DNA from: a virus
Length of the DNA: 64,000 nt
Virus record (IMG/VR): IMGVR_UViG_3300035670_000114
Span: 22,867-86,866 of that record
Strand: one strand, 5' to 3'
Shown here in pieces: positions 21,454 through 60,794 of the stretch (positions are counted from its first letter, which is position 1; every line of letters begins with the position of its first letter). The position numbers and the translations under genes are program-made. The notes below the pieces were generated by a model, which saw only the letters and a list, made by a program, of their open reading frames with translations, ran no database searches and was not told the origin of the DNA.

Positions 21454-23037
21454 TTGGCAATCAGGGACAGCACCGTTGAGCAGGTGCGCCAGGTGCCCGT
21501 CACGCAGGTACTCAAAAACGAAGGCATCGAGATGAAGCGTGTCGGCCGCGAGGCCGTCACCTTGTGTCCCTGGCACAACGACTCCAACCCATCTCTGACG
21601 CTCAACGACGACAAGAATATCTGCTTCTGCTTCGCCTGCGGCGGCGGCAGTGACGCCATCGCCTACATCCAGCAATATCACAGCCTCAGCTTTTCTGATG
21701 CCGTCGCACGCATCGCCGAGAAGAACGGCATCGACGTCCTGTTCGACGACCTCGATCCCGCCGAAGCCCTGCGGGCCGCCGAAGAGCGCCGCAGGCGACA
21801 GGAGGCCATCGACAAGCAGCAGGACGCCTTCCGAAGCGGCATACAGTCGAGGCACGGTATCGACGCCCGCGCCTGGCTGCTTTCTCGCGGCATCAGACCC
21901 GAAACCTGCCGAGAATTCGGCATCGGTTGGGCCCGGGACGGCCGCTTTGCCCGCCGCGTCACGGTGCCAATCCATGACCACAGGGGCTCCCTGGTCGGCT
22001 TCACCGGCAGGACAATCGACGACGTCACCGACGAAAACAGGAAGTACGTCAACTCGTCATCGAGCGACCTCTTCCAGAAGGGCGCACTCGTCTACAACGA
22101 ACACAAGGCAATCCGCGCCGCCAGGTCAAACGGCTTCCTGGTGTTCGTCGAGGGTCACTTCGACGTCATTCAGATGTGGCAGTACGGGATACCGAACACC
22201 GTTGCCATCCAGGGCACCGCAGCGCCCATGCTGCAGTCCATCAAGAGGTTGTCGAGGTACTGCAAGCGCTTTGTGCTCTGCTACGACGGCGACAGCGGCG
22301 GCCGAAAGGCCATCCAGAACTTCGTGGACGTCTGCGGCCTAATGGCCTGTAAGGGTGAAGTCAGCATCACGGTTGCCAGCCTTCCTGAAGGCAGCGACCC
22401 CGACGACTGCATCAGAAACAACGTCGACCTGCACGGCATCATCGAGTCGGCTCCGCAGTGGCTCGACTGGCAGATCGACAACTGGCTGAATGAAGTCGAC
22501 AGGTCCGACACCCACCGCTTCTCGCAGATCGAGACCGCCATCCGCAAGCTCGTCGAGTCGATCACGTCCCCGGCCCTCCGGCAGCACTACATCGACAAGG
22601 CCTCCAAGGTGCTCACCGACAACCAGAAGTCGGCCGTCAGGCTGGCCCAGAAGTGGCGCCAGGACCTGCCAGCCATTCGCGTGTCGGCGCAATGGGAAAA
22701 GCCGGATCCGGCGTGGACCCGCCACCAGGTGGAGAAGCGTGCAATTCGCGCCTACATCCACGTCCCCGAGTGCCGCGAGAGGCTGGCGCCCCTGATGCAT
22801 CACCTGCAGACGCCCTCCTTCTCGTGGCTGTGGGGTCGCATCCAAGAGCTCGAACGGCTCACCGAAAACCTCGACTCGCACTTACTTATGTCGGTGTTGG
22901 TCGTGGCAGAGCCGCAGTACCTCAGGACCCTGCGCCCGATTGTCGTGCCAACCATTGAGGTCTCGATGGACGACGGAACCTACTCCCATATCGAGCGTAC
23001 AATGTCAAGCACGCTTGCGATGGACCTTCGACTGTGA
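21454..23037 (+). CDS. DNA primase, DnaG type
   Basis: The protein has 527 aa with a TTG start. The N-terminal CHC2 zinc finger reads CPWHNDSNPSLTL...ICFCFACGGGSDAIAYIQ. The TOPRIM catalytic region shows FLVFVEGHFDVIQMW and RFVLCYDGDSGGRKAIQ, including the conserved acidic residues. The C-terminal part probably contacts the helicase. It synthesises RNA primers with the DnaB-like helicase encoded on the opposite strand. It overlaps the glutaredoxin start by GTGA. Confidence 0.92.
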   Translation: MAIRDSTVEQVRQVPVTQVLKNEGIEMKRVGREAVTLCPWHNDSNPSLTLNDDKNICFCFACGGGSDAIAYIQQYHSLSFSDAVARIAEKNGIDVLFDDLDPAEALRAAEERRRRQEAIDKQQDAFRSGIQSRHGIDARAWLLSRGIRPETCREFGIGWARDGRFARRVTVPIHDHRGSLVGFTGRTIDDVTDENRKYVNSSSSDLFQKGALVYNEHKAIRAARSNGFLVFVEGHFDVIQMWQYGIPNTVAIQGTAAPMLQSIKRLSRYCKRFVLCYDGDSGGRKAIQNFVDVCGLMACKGEVSITVASLPEGSDPDDCIRNNVDLHGIIESAPQWLDWQIDNWLNEVDRSDTHRFSQIETAIRKLVESITSPALRQHYIDKASKVLTDNQKSAVRLAQKWRQDLPAIRVSAQWEKPDPAWTRHQVEKRAIRAYIHVPECRERLAPLMHHLQTPSFSWLWGRIQELERLTENLDSHLLMSVLVVAEPQYLRTLRPIVVPTIEVSMDDGTYSHIERTMSSTLAMDLRL

Positions 23038-42812: not shown

Positions 42813-42989
42813 ATGACTGTTGAGGACAGATTTACAGGCCGACTTTATGACAAACTTAGTGACTTGCTCCCTAGCCCAAATGGCAGCACCTGTGATTACT
42901 GTGGGCATTTCATAATAGACAGATGCCCCATGTGTGGGGCTCCACAATGCTGCCCTAGGTGCTGTAGAGAGGAGAACTACGATGCCTGA
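42813..42989 (+). CDS. Cys-rich mini-protein (58 aa)
   Basis: ATG at 42813 after GAGGAGA. The C-terminal 35 residues carry TCDYCGHF, DRCPMCGAPQCCPRCC, four CxxC-type pairs that could bind two zinc ions. It overlaps the next start. Confidence 0.6.
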   Translation: MTVEDRFTGRLYDKLSDLLPSPNGSTCDYCGHFIIDRCPMCGAPQCCPRCCREENYDA

Positions 42990-43209
42990 GTTTGAAAAGC
43001 TGCCAAACGGTTTTTACTGGATCAGCACCAAAAGTTATCCAGATGAACGCAGCCTAGTTCGGCTTTACACAAATCCAGGCACCGCGCAAAGGGGTGTTGG
43101 CTTCGGCATCTGGGATGGCTGTGCATTCGTACCGCTAAGTGACTTGATCGAAGATGCGGTTTTGGCGCCTGCGCTGTTGTCCGAAAGCAACACAAGTGAC
43201 CACCACTAA
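42982..43209 (+). CDS. Small hypothetical protein
   Basis: The protein has 75 aa from the ATG at 42982, which has AGAGGAGAA upstream and overlaps the previous stop. Pattern: FYWISTKSYPDERSLVRLYT, GFGIWDGCAFVPLSDLIED. Ends in SDHH. Function unknown. Confidence 0.55.
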   Translation: MPEFEKLPNGFYWISTKSYPDERSLVRLYTNPGTAQRGVGFGIWDGCAFVPLSDLIEDAVLAPALLSESNTSDHH

Positions 43210-47034: not shown

Positions 47035-47292
47035 ATGCAGGACTACTCCGCCCTCGACGACGCCATCTGCCGCTTCCTGGAAGCCAACGACGGCCATCCG
47101 ACCAACAACAGCGCCCTCTGCGAGATCGCTGGCAAATACGCGCCAAGCAATGTCGCCTGGCGATTGGTCGATCGCCGCATGCAAGCCATGAAGAAGTCCG
47201 GTCGGATTGCTTTTGTCGGCAGGGGGCGCAACAACCCATCCGGCCGAAGCCATGGCTGGATTGTCCGTCAACCTGGATTTACCAATGACTAG
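47035..47292 (+). CDS. Small winged-helix-like protein
   Basis: The protein has 85 aa from the ATG at 47035. YSALDDAICRFLEANDGHPT, VAWRLVDRRMQAMKKSGRIA, then FVGRGRNNPSGRSHGWIV fits helix-helix-wing. A DNA-binding regulator is possible. It overlaps the next gene by 8 nt. Confidence 0.55.
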   Translation: MQDYSALDDAICRFLEANDGHPTNNSALCEIAGKYAPSNVAWRLVDRRMQAMKKSGRIAFVGRGRNNPSGRSHGWIVRQPGFTND

Positions 47293-47830
47293 TACGACGC
47301 GCAAGATAAAGCGCGGAGCCTCGTGGTACAACCTTGGGCTTGCCCTCTGTTCATCTTTCTGCGTATCCTCCCCCTCGTGCCGGTTCAACACGGGCACCGG
47401 CCTCCGCCTTTGTTGCTCCCCTCCTGTTCCTCCGGTCATGCCTTGGGCTCCCACCGCCGCAGGCCACTTCTGTCTTGAATGTGTCTTGGATGTGCTTCTG
47501 GGGCTCAGTCCTGTAAGACATCTGCCGTGGTGTTTCCAGTTCGACTCAACGCCGCAGGGGTTCAGTTTCTGGTGGGACATTGCAGGTGGCAGGAAAGATT
47601 TCGACTGCGCTCGCCCGATCCTGCTGCATTGGGTCAGGCAAGCCTTCATCGAGTCACGCGCCGAGCGACGAGTGTTCCGCGATCTATGTGAAGACGTCCT
47701 TCGCTATTACCACGGCGAAGCCCCTTACGACTTCAGGTCGCTCAACCCGTACGATAGAGACAACGCACGCCACGACGCCTGGTCTGATATATCTCAGCGC
47801 CTGTCGTCTGCCCTGAAGGACTTTCCGTGA
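47285..47830 (+). CDS. Protein with one FGE C-terminal-like module plus Cys/Trp-rich domain
   Basis: The protein has 181 aa from the ATG at 47285. Residues about 7-43 are KIKRGASWYNLGLALC...TGTGLRLCC, the RGxSW...GxRLxC module otherwise found at 56.8-60.8 kb. A second domain follows (HFCLECVLDVLLGLSPVRHL, FSFWWDIAGGRKDFDCARPI) and a charged helical tail. The module is only about 35 residues, too short to be an FGE enzyme. Overlaps both neighbours. Confidence 0.6.
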   Translation: MTSTTRKIKRGASWYNLGLALCSSFCVSSPSCRFNTGTGLRLCCSPPVPPVMPWAPTAAGHFCLECVLDVLLGLSPVRHLPWCFQFDSTPQGFSFWWDIAGGRKDFDCARPILLHWVRQAFIESRAERRVFRDLCEDVLRYYHGEAPYDFRSLNPYDRDNARHDAWSDISQRLSSALKDFP

Positions 47831-56390: not shown

Positions 56391-56801
56391 ATGTCGCAAT
56401 CGCAAGACCTTTTCTTGGAGGCCACGCGCCTTCACCTTCGCTTTCCGTCGTCCCGTGGTGAGCTGACCACCGAAGATCTGTGGGACGTGCCCCTGCGGGC
56501 GCCGGGTCGTGACTTCAGCCTTGACTTCATCGCCAGGGAGCTGCATCAGCAACTCACCCAGGCTGGGCAGCCTTCCTTCGTGGACGACGAGAGTCCGGCG
56601 ACTGGCCGGCTTTCGCTGCAGCTTGAGGTCGTCAAGGCCGTCATTGCCGTCAAGAAGGAGGCCCAGACGGCGAAAGAGCGGCAGGCCGAGTTGGAGGCTC
56701 GTCGTCGACTGCTCAAGCAGGCCGTCAAGGCCAAGGAGGAGGAGTCGCTGACGGCGATGTCCCTGGCGCAGCTCAGGGAGGAGCTAGAGCGTCTGTCCTG
56801 A
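56391..56801 (+). CDS. Helical partner protein of the 661-aa gene
   Basis: The protein has 136 aa. Pattern LFLEATRLHLRFPSSRGELT, TEDLWDVPL, then long helices (VVKAVIAVKKEAQTAKERQA) and a closing MSLAQLREELERL occurs in a small conserved phage family. Start lies 8 nt after the previous stop; its stop overlaps the next ATG (TGATG). Confidence 0.65.
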   Translation: MSQSQDLFLEATRLHLRFPSSRGELTTEDLWDVPLRAPGRDFSLDFIARELHQQLTQAGQPSFVDDESPATGRLSLQLEVVKAVIAVKKEAQTAKERQAELEARRRLLKQAVKAKEEESLTAMSLAQLREELERLS

Positions 56802-57667
56802 TGGAGCACTCGCATGCGTCAAGGCTTGCCTTTGCCAGCCTGCTTGGTTGGCCGGAGGCGGACCGCTACCCGGCGCTGCGAGGTGGGGCCTGCTGCAGGA
56901 GTGCGCACCGTGGTCGTTCGACCGCTCGCGCACTTCACTCTTCGAAGTTGGCGTATGGCTGCATAGGGTTTCGCCTCTTCGCCACGTGCTACAGTCCATG
57001 TTGTCTTTCGCAAATCGCTTCTATGTCCACCACCACGCAAACCTGGGCCAAGGTTGGGCGCCAGTTGACCGTTGCGCTGCCCGACGGCGTTGAGCTCGTC
57101 CTCCTGGAGATTCCTGCCGGCGAATTCCTGATGGGTTCGCCCGACAACGAGCCGGGGCGATACGCCGACGAGGGGCCGCAGCACAAGGTCGTCATCGACA
57201 AGCCCTTCTACCTGGGCGAGACGGAGGTGACGCAACGGCAATGGCGCTCGATTGCGGCGCTGCCCAAGGTCAAGATCGACCTCAAGCCCGACCCCTCCCA
57301 CTTCAAGGGTGACGACCTGCCGGTCGAATCCATCAACTGGCACGAAAGCCAGGAGGCCGCCGCCCGTGTAGCCGCCTACACCGGCCTGGGCTTCGGCCTG
57401 CCGTCTGAGGCCAAGTGGGAGTACGCCTGTCGGGCGGGTACCACGACCCGCTACTACACGGGTGACACCATTACGAGCAACGACGCCAACTTCGACGACT
57501 CGGCCAATGGCGGGGTCTACCGAGCCAAGACCACGCCGGTTAAGACCTTCAAGCCCAACCCCTGGGGCCTGTACGACATGCACGGGAACCTGTGGGAGTG
57601 GTGTGACGACGACTGGCATCCGAACTACAACGGGGCGCCGACTGACGGCAGCTCCTGGCGCGACTGA
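56801..57667 (+). CDS. FGE/SUMF1-like protein lacking its C-terminal part, with an N-terminal FGE-type module
   Basis: The frame encodes 288 aa. The first 74 residues hold YPALRGGACCRSAHRG...GCIGFRLFATC, a C-terminal-type FGE module. From the internal ATG at 57023 (214 aa) it is a classical FGE start: LLEIPAGEFLMGSPDNE, FYLGETEVTQRQW, PVESINWHES, FGLPSEAKWEYACRAGT, NPWGLYDMHGNLWEW. It stops at DGSSWRD, just where RVLRGGSW...GFR should follow. TGCTACAGT lies 28 nt before the internal ATG, so a separate shorter product is likely. The catalytic C-terminal Cys region is absent from its normal place. Confidence 0.7.
   Translation: MEHSHASRLAFASLLGWPEADRYPALRGGACCRSAHRGRSTARALHSSKLAYGCIGFRLFATCYSPCCLSQIASMSTTTQTWAKVGRQLTVALPDGVELVLLEIPAGEFLMGSPDNEPGRYADEGPQHKVVIDKPFYLGETEVTQRQWRSIAALPKVKIDLKPDPSHFKGDDLPVESINWHESQEAAARVAAYTGLGFGLPSEAKWEYACRAGTTTRYYTGDTITSNDANFDDSANGGVYRAKTTPVKTFKPNPWGLYDMHGNLWEWCDDDWHPNYNGAPTDGSSWRD
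56987..56995 (+). promoter_or_regulatory. Extended -10-like motif TGCTACAGT inside the frame
   Basis: Lies 28 nt before the internal ATG at 57023 of the FGE-like gene. Confidence 0.5.
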
Positions 57668-57703
57668 TCGGATTCGGCAGCGCCAAGCACGCCAACTGCT
57701 GCT

Positions 57704-57747
57704 CGGCGATTCCCGGGGCAACTCTCCCGGGGTCGCCGTTTAGTTTT
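57704..57747 (+). terminator. Strong terminator after the truncated FGE gene
   Basis: CGGCGA/TCGCCG outer stem extended by a CCCGGGG-type inner stem, then TTTAGTTTT. Confidence 0.8.
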
Positions 57748-57807
57748 GCTGAAGTGATGCGGGCCCAGTCCTGTCGCGCTTCGTGATTCCACCCCGAACT
57801 TTTCCGC
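57748..57807. other. Short spacer before the module array genes
   Basis: No gene and no clear promoter hexamer at the usual spacing is seen. Transcription of the following module genes may rely on readthrough or an unrecognised promoter. Confidence 0.3.
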
Positions 57808-58164
57808 ATGACTTCCTCTGATTCCGAGGCGTCACAGCCTCTTAACGTTGACTTCCGTCTGACCTGGGTTGCGCCGGCTGCTGGCTACAAGAAGTTGAGG
57901 CCGTTGCGTGGTGGTCCCTGGACGGATAGCCCCAGGTATTGCAGGTCGGCCCAGCGTCCTCCTCTGGGGGTCGGTAGCGCTTACAGCTTTATCGGTGTTC
58001 GCTTGGCCTGCCTTGAGCCGGCTACCGGTGAGGAGGGATGCAGATTGTTGCGCGGCGGCTCCTGGTACGACGACCCCAGGGACTGCCGCTCGGCCTATCG
58101 CGGCCACTACGAGCCCGACGACGCCATCAACGATGTCGGCTTCCGCGTGGCCTGCCTCCCCTAG
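57808..58164 (+). CDS. Double FGE C-terminal-module protein
   Basis: The protein has 118 aa. Module 1: LRGGPWTDSPRYCRSAQR...IGVRLAC. Module 2: LLRGGSWYDDPRDCRSAYRG...NDVGFRVAC. Module 2 is close to the canonical FGE end and could complete the fold of the truncated core encoded upstream. No other domain is present. Confidence 0.72.
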   Translation: MTSSDSEASQPLNVDFRLTWVAPAAGYKKLRPLRGGPWTDSPRYCRSAQRPPLGVGSAYSFIGVRLACLEPATGEEGCRLLRGGSWYDDPRDCRSAYRGHYEPDDAINDVGFRVACLP

Positions 58165-58219
58165 GACCTTTCTCTCGACCCTTGAGCCCTCACTCCTTTG
58201 GCCTAATCCGCTGCTTCTG

Positions 58220-58408
58220 ATGACTGATCAAACCTGGCATCACGTCGGCACCTGGCGGTGTCCTCACTGTGGGACCGAGCAGGAGGCCGTGGTTGCGCAC
58301 ACTAGGCCCGACTGGACGCCGATCGGCAACTGCTGCCGGTGCCATCGCTCGCTGGCGGGTGACCCAAGTGAAGACAGGGTCTTGACATCCGGCGATGGAC
58401 GGGGCTAG
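58220..58408 (+). CDS. Small zinc-ribbon protein (62 aa)
   Basis: ATG at 58220. Cys pairs in TWRCPHCGTEQEAVV and GNCCRCHRSLAGD form a likely zinc ribbon. Lies between two module genes. Confidence 0.6.
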   Translation: MTDQTWHHVGTWRCPHCGTEQEAVVAHTRPDWTPIGNCCRCHRSLAGDPSEDRVLTSGDGRG

Positions 58409-58435
58409 GGTTGCGTGGTGTTTCTGGAGAATTCC

Positions 58436-58879
58436 ATGGCGACGAGTGGCTGCATTTGGATCGACAAGCACCTTGTCAACCTGGACTCAATTGCTTTCAT
58501 ACGATCTCCTTTTGCGGTTTGCACGGGGCGATATGAGTACGTTCAGACGCCCTTTCCGCATTACGTGAACTTCTACATGAGCAGGGTCGGGTTTCAGCTT
58601 GCTGGGGTCGAGCATGGGATTTACTGTGACTCCGACTCGTATCGAGGTCCCCGGTTGACCGATCAGGCAAGGTCTACGTTCAGGAAGGCCGATCGGGAAG
58701 TGGTCGTCAACCTGCTGACCGAATGGGCCCTTGAGGAGGTGAATGCCAAAAGGCAGTCCTCAATGCTGTTCCGTCGTGTGGCGATGGAGCGCTGGGGACT
58801 GGCTTCGTCGCAGGTGCCATTCGAGGTGCCATCCGTTGAACAGGTTCTTGAGGCTAGCCTGCAGGAGGTGCTGAAGTGA
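58436..58879 (+). CDS. Hypothetical protein
   Basis: The protein has 147 aa from the ATG at 58436; a GTG at 58415 is possible. N-terminal strand-rich (SGCIWIDKHLVNLDSIAFIR, YVNFYMSRVGFQLAGVEHGI), C-terminal helical. GTGA overlap with the next gene. Confidence 0.55.
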   Translation: MATSGCIWIDKHLVNLDSIAFIRSPFAVCTGRYEYVQTPFPHYVNFYMSRVGFQLAGVEHGIYCDSDSYRGPRLTDQARSTFRKADREVVVNLLTEWALEEVNAKRQSSMLFRRVAMERWGLASSQVPFEVPSVEQVLEASLQEVLK

Positions 58880-59559
58880 GTTTTGTTTCGCGACGCGGTG
58901 CAAGCTGGTGGTCCACTGGTCCCCGTGTAGGTGGTTCTCCCCGTTGTATGGGCAATACCCCCGATACGCGTGCCTTTACCGGCCTCCGCCTCTATTGCGC
59001 CCCCTTAGCCGAAGAGCACCCCACCCCTGGTATCATCCCCCATCAGACCAATGCCCAGGGGGCCGTGGTTGGCGGCGGTTGGGCCAACCCCCTCGTCCAT
59101 TGCCGCTCGACCTCCCGTCACGGGCCACAGCAGTCATCGAAGCGCTGTACCCGGGGCTTCCGCCTCTATTGCTCCTCAATCTCCGACCAGCGCCATGACT
59201 ACGCCGACCTACTGGAGGTGGCGATCGAATGCACCCGCGCCGAGAGGGCGGTGGAGCTGGCTGACCTCAAGAAAAGGCTCGCGGCGCTTGATGCCTGCGG
59301 CGACAAGGTGAGTGCGGCGGCGTTTGGCTACCTGTTTGCTCGCAAGGAGCTGCTGCGTGGTGCGTCCTCGCTAGAGGAGGCCATGGAGTCGGAAGAGCTG
59401 AACCCCTGGAAGGCGCGGGTAATTGACGCACTAGTCGTCAACTTCTTGCTGAACGAGGAGAACGAGCGCGATCCGAAGCTGGCCTTGCGTGACATCGCCG
59501 AGTTCGAGCAACTGGTGGCCAGGGATCCCGTCTTGAATCCGAGGCCCGAAGCCGACTAG
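58876..59559 (+). CDS. Double FGE-module protein with helical C-terminus
   Basis: The protein has 227 aa with a GTG start. Module 1: SRRGASWWSTGP...FTGLRLYC. Module 2: VVGGGWANPLVHCRSTSR...TRGFRLYC. Residues about 110-227 are helical (YADLLEVAIECTRAERAVEL, LALRDIAEFEQLVARDPVLN). Modules have drifted far from FGE but keep both ends. Confidence 0.68.
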   Translation: MSFVSRRGASWWSTGPRVGGSPRCMGNTPDTRAFTGLRLYCAPLAEEHPTPGIIPHQTNAQGAVVGGGWANPLVHCRSTSRHGPQQSSKRCTRGFRLYCSSISDQRHDYADLLEVAIECTRAERAVELADLKKRLAALDACGDKVSAAAFGYLFARKELLRGASSLEEAMESEELNPWKARVIDALVVNFLLNEENERDPKLALRDIAEFEQLVARDPVLNPRPEAD

Positions 59560-59594
59560 CTCCAGTAATCCCTCGTCCACTTACCTCCGATCAA

Positions 59595-60794
59595 ATGACT
59601 TCGTTTCTTGATGCGCTGAAGAAGGTCAGGCTGCCTTGGTTTTCGTCAATCGGCAACGGCAATCCTGGTCCGGTTGAGTCTACTGACCTGCAGGGGGCTT
59701 CATTTATCATGCGCGGCGGCTCCTGGATCGACTACCCCGGGGAATGCCGCTTAGCCGAACGTGCCCACGGCAGGCCTGACCTCGCTGACGACCTTGTCGG
59801 CTTTCGTCTTTTCTGCTCCCCCCTCCCTGATCGGCCCAAGATCGCGCCCCCGCCTGTAATGCGCGGCAGCTCTTGGCCTGATTTCCCCGTGGTTTGTCGC
59901 TCGGCCTACCGCGACTACGACGTACTTGACGGTGTCGACGACCTTGTCGGCCTCCGCCTCTCCTGCTCCTACCCACTTGATCGCCTGAAGAAGACAAGCC
60001 GTTCTGTTGTGCGTGGTTCCGACTGGGCTCAGGCCATTGCGAGACGCCGCTCGACTTACCGCCTCTTCAGCGGTTCCGCTAACACCAGCGACACCATCGG
60101 CCTCCGCCTCTCCTGCTCCTATCCGTCTAATCTCCCCAAGGCCGCAGTCTCCCTTGTCTCGCGTGGCAGCTCTTGGCTCAGCGCCCCCGGGCGTTGCTGT
60201 TCAGCCTTCCGCAACAACGACACATCCGACTGCGTCGACCACCTTATCGGCCTCCGCCTCTCCTGCTCCTCCCTCCCCGCTCAACCAATGGCCGCCAACT
60301 CGCCCAGCCTGTCGAATTCACCCGACAATCCGACCGCCGATTCACCTGATTCGTCGAACTTACTCAGTGAATCGTTTCTCAAGGAGGCGTCGCTGGACGA
60401 TATTTGTCATCTTGCGCAGACGCCGGTTAACTGTTTCCTCTCGGATTCCGGCAGAGCGATACTCTATTCCGCCTTCAAGTGGTCGAATTCACCACAAGGA
60501 TCGGGCTACTGGGCCAAACTGTCTACGCTTCGGCGACCCTTCACCCGGTCCGACAAGGTGATCCTGCTCGACTGGATCAAGCAAATCGAAGCCAGGGAGG
60601 CGCAGCAGGCCGCCGATACCACGCCTCAACCAAGCGCCACCACCCCACGAACACTCCAACCCACCCCAACCCCCACCCGCCAACAGGCCGCCGACGCCCT
60701 GCTTGACCTGGCGCTGGCGTGCGACCCCAAGAGTCCACAGGCTCGTGATGCGCTGCGGGTGCTGCAGGCTGTGGTGGAGTCGTTACCCAAATAA
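59595..60794 (+). CDS. Tandem array of four FGE C-terminal-like modules
   Basis: The protein has 399 aa. Residues about 37-230 contain four modules of about 49-51 aa: MRGGSWIDYPGECRLAER...VGFRLFC, MRGSSWPDFPVVCRSAYR...VGLRLSC, VRGSDWAQ...IGLRLSC, SRGSSWLSAPGRCCSAFR...IGLRLSC. Each is linked by a short Pro/Leu-rich segment (PLPDRPK, YPLDRLKK, YPSNLPKA, SLPAQPMA). A Ser/Pro-rich spacer and a C-terminal helical domain (FLKEASLDDICHLAQTPVNC, DKVILLDWIKQIEAREAQQA) follow. The end sequence GGCCTCCGCCTCTCCTGCTC is nearly identical in repeats 2-4, while middles vary strongly. Confidence 0.75.
   Translation: MTSFLDALKKVRLPWFSSIGNGNPGPVESTDLQGASFIMRGGSWIDYPGECRLAERAHGRPDLADDLVGFRLFCSPLPDRPKIAPPPVMRGSSWPDFPVVCRSAYRDYDVLDGVDDLVGLRLSCSYPLDRLKKTSRSVVRGSDWAQAIARRRSTYRLFSGSANTSDTIGLRLSCSYPSNLPKAAVSLVSRGSSWLSAPGRCCSAFRNNDTSDCVDHLIGLRLSCSSLPAQPMAANSPSLSNSPDNPTADSPDSSNLLSESFLKEASLDDICHLAQTPVNCFLSDSGRAILYSAFKWSNSPQGSGYWAKLSTLRRPFTRSDKVILLDWIKQIEAREAQQAADTTPQPSATTPRTLQPTPTPTRQQAADALLDLALACDPKSPQARDALRVLQAVVESLPK
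59703..60275 (+). repeat. Four tandem ~150-bp FGE-module repeats
   Basis: Four units with conserved GCGTGGCAGCTCTTGG-like starts and GGCCTCCGCCTCTCCTGCTC ends and divergent centres, inside the 399-aa gene. Confidence 0.75.

Follow-up and report, generated by a model that had tools for sequence, protein, structure and literature searches.

Detached FGE-type lectin modules in phage genes as probable targets of cyanobacterial diversity-generating retroelements

Short modules repeated in four neighbouring genes of a phage of freshwater cyanobacteria are identified by sequence comparison as variable repeats (VRs) of diversity-generating retroelements (DGRs), corresponding to the C-terminal variable segment of formylglycine-generating-enzyme (FGE)-type C-type-lectin proteins of freshwater Synechococcus/Cyanobium. 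The reading that we favour, and regard as fairly probable, is that VRs of such a protein from the freshwater Synechococcus/Cyanobium DGR world are used detached by phages and diversified in trans. The VRs described so far are C-terminal parts of lectin-fold proteins, with the reverse transcriptase in the same genome, whereas here they are detached cassettes across phages in which a search for the enzyme gave no match. Should phage genes indeed be diversified by host DGRs, a hypermutation machine that has been proposed to act in bacterial immunity would be used by its target, and the phage proteins may offer a lectin scaffold, split or permuted by nature, whose variable tips can be exchanged. 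The open-access literature surveyed contained no description of VRs in tandem, split or permuted form, nor of phage genes as targets of a host DGR; an earlier note, made from the DNA letters, had likewise known of no described system with tandem free modules, and none was found.

The window, the whole stretch of 64,000 nucleotides analysed here, runs from base 22867 to base 86866, the last of a linear virus record. The terminase of this phage is 57-60% identical to those of the Synechococcus siphoviruses S-CBS2 and S-CRES1-3 and of related IMG/VR contigs, and the phage also encodes a portal, a primase, a ribonucleotide reductase and a tape-measure gene; no sister sequence of the phage itself was found. 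The module motif (RGxSW...CRSA-R...GFRLxC) is present in ORFs 56801-57667, 57808-58164, 58876-59559 and 59595-60794 in one, two, two and four copies, respectively, so that the nine copies counted in the earlier note are real. Six of them are clear (m2, m3, m6-m9), m5 is moderate, and m1 and m4 are degenerate. A tenth, weak module, m10, which the earlier note does not list, was found at about 47.3 kb (Table 1). The four modules of ORF 59595 are spaced by an exact 150-nt period, an array missed by the tandem repeat finder. Codon periodicity is weaker in m1 and m4/m5 than in the other modules, making their coding status less sure; m1 scores 11.8 bits, and periodicity in its ORF is strong from 57023 on. 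An inverted repeat seen by eye after the FGE core (~57,690-57,730) had suggested an intrinsic terminator, and the terminator scan listed none there. Elsewhere in the window (42919-43206), a 91-aa ORF matches a host-only VR profile weakly (12.5 bits), probably by chance.

Table 1. Module genes of the window and the ORF between them; all positions are those of the window.
Feature	Position	Strand	Content
m10 gene	47285..47830	+	m10 (47309-47425), degenerate; then a paralogue of C-terminal domain 1
Permuted FGE-like ORF	56801..57667	+	m1 (56873-56980) in frame; then FGE core (~57023-57664)
Two-module gene	57808..58164	+	m2 (57898-58017); m3 (58042-58161); PF03781 210-254/255
ORF of 154 aa	58415..58879	+	between module genes; overlaps start of m4/m5 gene; no family found
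m4/m5 gene	58876..59559	+	m4 (58888-59010), weak; m5 (59065-59178); C-terminal domain 2 (~59200-59559)
Four-module gene	59595..60794	+	m6 (59706-59822); m7 (59856-59975); m8 (60006-60125); m9 (60156-60272); then C-terminal domain 1 (~60339-60791; WSNSPQGSGYW...VVESLPK)

That the modules are the C-terminal segment of the FGE/C-type-lectin fold, as had been proposed from the sequence, is borne out by Pfam family PF03781 (FGE-sulfatase), whose profile matches the two-module ORF 57808 at positions 210-254 of 255 (3.5e-9). A missing relation to FGE/SUMF1 would have told against this assignment, and the relation was found. The same profile matches ORF 56801 (1.6e-39) only at positions 6-208, and this ORF therefore lacks the C-terminal segment; its FGE core stops at the VR boundary (...NGAPTDGSSWRD*). 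Core and module thus divide the domain between different genes, and no single protein matches it whole. When the profile contained host VRs only, it detected m3 (1.9e-18), m6 (5e-14), m2 (4e-10), m7 (1e-9) and m9 (5e-5), with m8 borderline and m1 and m4 weak; m5 became clear only if phage modules were included. With mixed phage and host profiles the clear modules scored 62-75 bits and m8, now also clear, 24 bits, compared with a maximum of 13.4 bits in 100 shuffles of the 54.0-61.5 kb region. The modules carry RGGSW......C with one cysteine, and not the cysteine pair of the FGE enzyme; by its positions in human FGE, the catalytic-site pair lies in the C-terminal segment. Since only one of the two catalytic-site cysteines is kept, enzyme activity is not expected. 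The description of the modules as free holds in so far as they are detached from the end of the FGE core; it goes too far in that the modules form N-terminal fusions with other domains or with the truncated core.

Structure prediction, which the earlier note had suggested, gave a confident FGE-fold core for the permuted protein when 36 sequences were used and alignment rows consisting of a VR only, which were misplaced, were left out; a shallower alignment of 11 sequences yielded a mean pLDDT of 54.7. The module was placed no further than its GFRV strand (residues 34-38), and that weakly (pLDDT 55-73), the first 30 residues having pLDDT below 50 and the variable part being without a model. As a prediction, the structure neither proves nor excludes docking of the module on the core. 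The best PDB match of the predicted core (Foldseek) was PvdO (3e-12), followed by Treponema TvpA. The core is a clear member of the PF03781 FGE/SUMF1 and PvdO family, from which it differs in being without the C-terminal segment.

The clearest DGR variable repeat of the window is m3. Compared with a template-like copy in the phage contig G315, it mismatches at 10 of 25 template adenines and at 4 of 92 other bases (p=2e-5), in agreement with the DGR signature that the earlier note had suspected, and each of the 15 A of m3 is matched by an A in that copy. Judged from the aligned bases, this direction of the differences, in which every A of m3 is a template A, is the mark of copying from template to VR. 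The A-bias has the same direction against four host templates (p=3e-4 to 4e-3); m3 is closer to host templates than to host VRs, and its mismatches cluster at template adenines. In this sense m3 is an almost fresh VR copy. When scored in the same manner, the other window modules also show the excess at A, accompanied by drift elsewhere: m2 and m5-m9 differ at 18-42% of non-adenine sites and are therefore not fresh copies. Summed over eight modules, template AAN codons are changed at positions 1, 2 and 3 in 61, 46 and 29 of 80 cases, while the respective numbers at other codons are 61, 42 and 70 of 184; the third position of AAN codons changes at the same rate as elsewhere and the first two far more. 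In the old modules, part of this excess may stem from selection on these codons, either relaxed or diversifying.

The drift bears on an explanation in which 3' ends of host DGR targets were picked up, duplicated by recombination and left to drift, with nothing diversified or used. In line with such a fossil capture, m3 retains, past its VR, the 3' tail of a host target gene, which is interrupted by a premature stop (LP*DLSLDP), m1, m4 and m10 are degenerate, codon periodicity is weak in m1 and m4/m5, non-A divergence rises to 40% or more, and modules are absent from the S-CBS2-type relatives examined. The constant codons of the modules speak against it, having a pS of 0.51 versus a pN of 0.34.

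Further evidence on this question comes from other phages. Scanning IMG/VR with a DNA pattern yielded 21 stretches, unlike protein searches of IMG/VR with the four-module gene and with domain 2, which gave no matches. A match in contig G012 was due to chance. Free or N-terminal modules were found in G315, G318, G316/G331, G322/G324 and G333. Besides the window phage, at least five further phage groups have detached modules, which lie in open frames. The FGE cores of these phages also end at the VR boundary; two modules precede the core in L168 and L166, one does in L161/L217, L159 and L218, and none in L216, where a two-module gene follows directly. The layout of ORF 56801-57667 is common to five homologous phage ORFs, and the order of this ORF and the two-module gene 57808-58164 is also that of L216 and L217. 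Homologues of the four-module gene (L164:201-1079, three modules, E 1e-24) and of the m4/m5 gene (L164:1019-1705, one module, E 9e-14) are present in G315. Those terminases that could be identified in the module phages share only about 32% identity with the terminase of the window phage, so the module system spans distinct phage lineages. This recurrence in at least five groups, C-terminal domains that are homologous between phages, and DGR signatures that look recent make it improbable that the modules are simply left-over DGR targets, an option that the earlier note had listed. The open frames of the detached layout, the differing module counts beside homologous C-terminal domains and near-perfect template matches in G318 and G333 likewise make a drifting fossil capture unlikely. 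In several other IMG/VR contigs (L165, L163, L160, L174, L176), an extra out-of-frame VR was observed before the in-frame C-terminal VR of FGE genes; the two copies lie 124-130 nt apart, and the core reads the first in another open frame.

The template matches just mentioned concern three free modules of G333 and G318, which agree with host template L091 at 70-71 of 73 non-A bases and differ from it at 12-18 of 26 A (p down to 6e-11); homology to host DNA is limited to the VR. Pairs of related phages point in the same direction. In L166/L168 the VR differs at 58 of 222 positions and the surroundings at 170 of 2394 (p=4e-16), and in L157/L171 VR differences amount to 15-16% versus 4-6% in the surroundings. 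The differences between related-phage VRs concentrate at AAN positions 1-2, the adenine positions of the template. The pair G316/G331, 98.4% alike over 5 kb, differs most in the module before the FGE core and in the upstream module genes. The module before the core differs at 26 of 111 positions plus indels, many of them not at template A, and its replacement looks more like cassette exchange. The six free modules of this pair are identical, as is the DNA around them, which permits no inference on their stability. Such an exchange would suit a cassette archive, a silent store from which recombination moves variable tips into FGE genes as in the gene conversion of antigenic variation, and so would the tandem arrays and the tandem out-of-frame VRs ahead of in-frame VRs in other contigs. 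We consider this quite unlikely, as the modules are in frame on genes with C-terminal domains of their own, needless for a silent store, and no free module was found as an exact donor.

For the preferred reading, diversification in trans, the relevant enzyme and template would be those of the host. Cyanobium sp. Cruz CV13-4-11 (L037) and Synechococcus sp. Tobar12-5m-g (L090, which belongs to the genome of L034) each combine an RVT_1 reverse transcriptase, a template and FGE VRs in one locus. The templates are AAC-rich (N-rich translation, RGGSWNNNPRNCRSAYRNNN...), and the FGE proteins there end in the variable segment. Among 12 genomes of the Cyanobium/Synechococcus family, the host modules examined were N-rich templates, ends of FGE cores, or fragments of FGE genes interrupted by a frame break or the end of a contig, and no detached variable modules were seen. 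One host FGE-VR protein is fused to a TIR domain. The stretches L037:7899-9117 and L090:419-1627 contain complete-looking DGRs of freshwater Cyanobium and Synechococcus; DGRs have been reported as absent from Synechococcus in the genome set of PMC7517822.

Within the phages, a search with the RVT_1 profile, which gives the host DGR enzymes about 57-61 bits, covered 21 records of more than 1 Mb together. No match was obtained at E<=10 in the 86.9-kb record, with controls positive, and none in the 20 module-bearing IMG/VR contigs; record and contigs are all linear and may be incomplete. The 86.9-kb record also holds no AAC-rich module copy that could be a template repeat. Hence, neither part of the reverse transcriptase and template repeat that the earlier note had proposed to look for in phages was found there, and templates of the matching type are located in host genomes. 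A complete DGR of the phage's own, located in a part absent from the assembly, would accord with the possible incompleteness of the linear record and with the unmutated template-like copy in G315. This copy lies within a module ORF and does not adjoin a reverse transcriptase, and RVT_1 is missing from every one of the 21 records, so we hold such an element to be highly improbable. An unmutated template-like module copy was observed at L215:3831-3953, inside a two-module phage ORF with no reverse transcriptase nearby.

The first strand of a C-type-lectin fold lies next to the last. A detached VR may therefore complete the lectin fold from the N-terminus of the core, as a circular permutation, or from a separate polypeptide, and in either position one core could serve several exchangeable variable tips. 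During infection, the host DGR enzyme and template RNA would rewrite the phage VRs in trans by mutagenic retrohoming onto the VR homology, and the phage would gain diversity without carrying the machine. Within one genome, DGR targets remote from the reverse transcriptase are known (PMC7517822; PMC10907252). A role as antigen sensors in defence systems has been put forward for DGR-diversified proteins in PMC10907252, where it is stated to be untested. Speculatively, the phage modules might be soluble decoys or partners that disturb the DGR-diversified sensors of the host, some of them TIR-fused FGE-VR proteins, or else binders of varying phage or host ligands. It is an equally tentative thought that phages without a reverse transcriptase parasitise the host DGR, and that their split or permuted lectins with exchangeable tips act against hypervariable host sensors.

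An alternative use is virion display, with the modules as variable tips of receptor-binding proteins; this is the known role of phage DGR targets (Bordetella phage BPP-1, PMC7517822) and would suit the C-type-lectin fold. The surroundings of the locus render it very unlikely: the module genes are flanked by phrog_1735/phrog_2018 genes and a DnaQ-like exonuclease gene, small unknown genes lie around them, the tape-measure gene is distant in record coordinates, and no part of the locus matches any tail family.

Bordetella phage Mtd is a DGR-diversified protein with a C-type-lectin fold. So is Treponema denticola TvpA (PDB 2y3c), which of the solved structures is the best match to the two-module protein (E 6e-4). 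Unlike the window modules, both are single complete domains with a C-terminal VR and a DGR in the same genome. Among the closest known systems are also the cyanobacterial DGR targets with a C-type-lectin/FGE VR (Vallota-Eastman 2020, PMC7517822; PNAS 2024, PMC10907252), which share the VR, the type of template and the adenine-directed variation. In these targets the VR forms the 3' end of a complete lectin gene and the reverse transcriptase is in the same genome, whereas in the window phage the core ends before the VR, the modules are detached, repeated and N-terminal or arrayed, and the phage records are without a detected reverse transcriptase. The phrog_18508 genes of Microcystis phages (LMM01 gp062) encode an FGE core that has about 50% identity to the one in the window; in contrast, these phage genes are complete, with the C-terminal segment attached. 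Between the Microcystis phages LMM01 and MaMV-DH01 (L010:4980-5780, L011:4980-5780), the FGE gene differs at 35 of 690 positions in the core and at 22 of 111 in the last segment, as if the latter were hypervariable.
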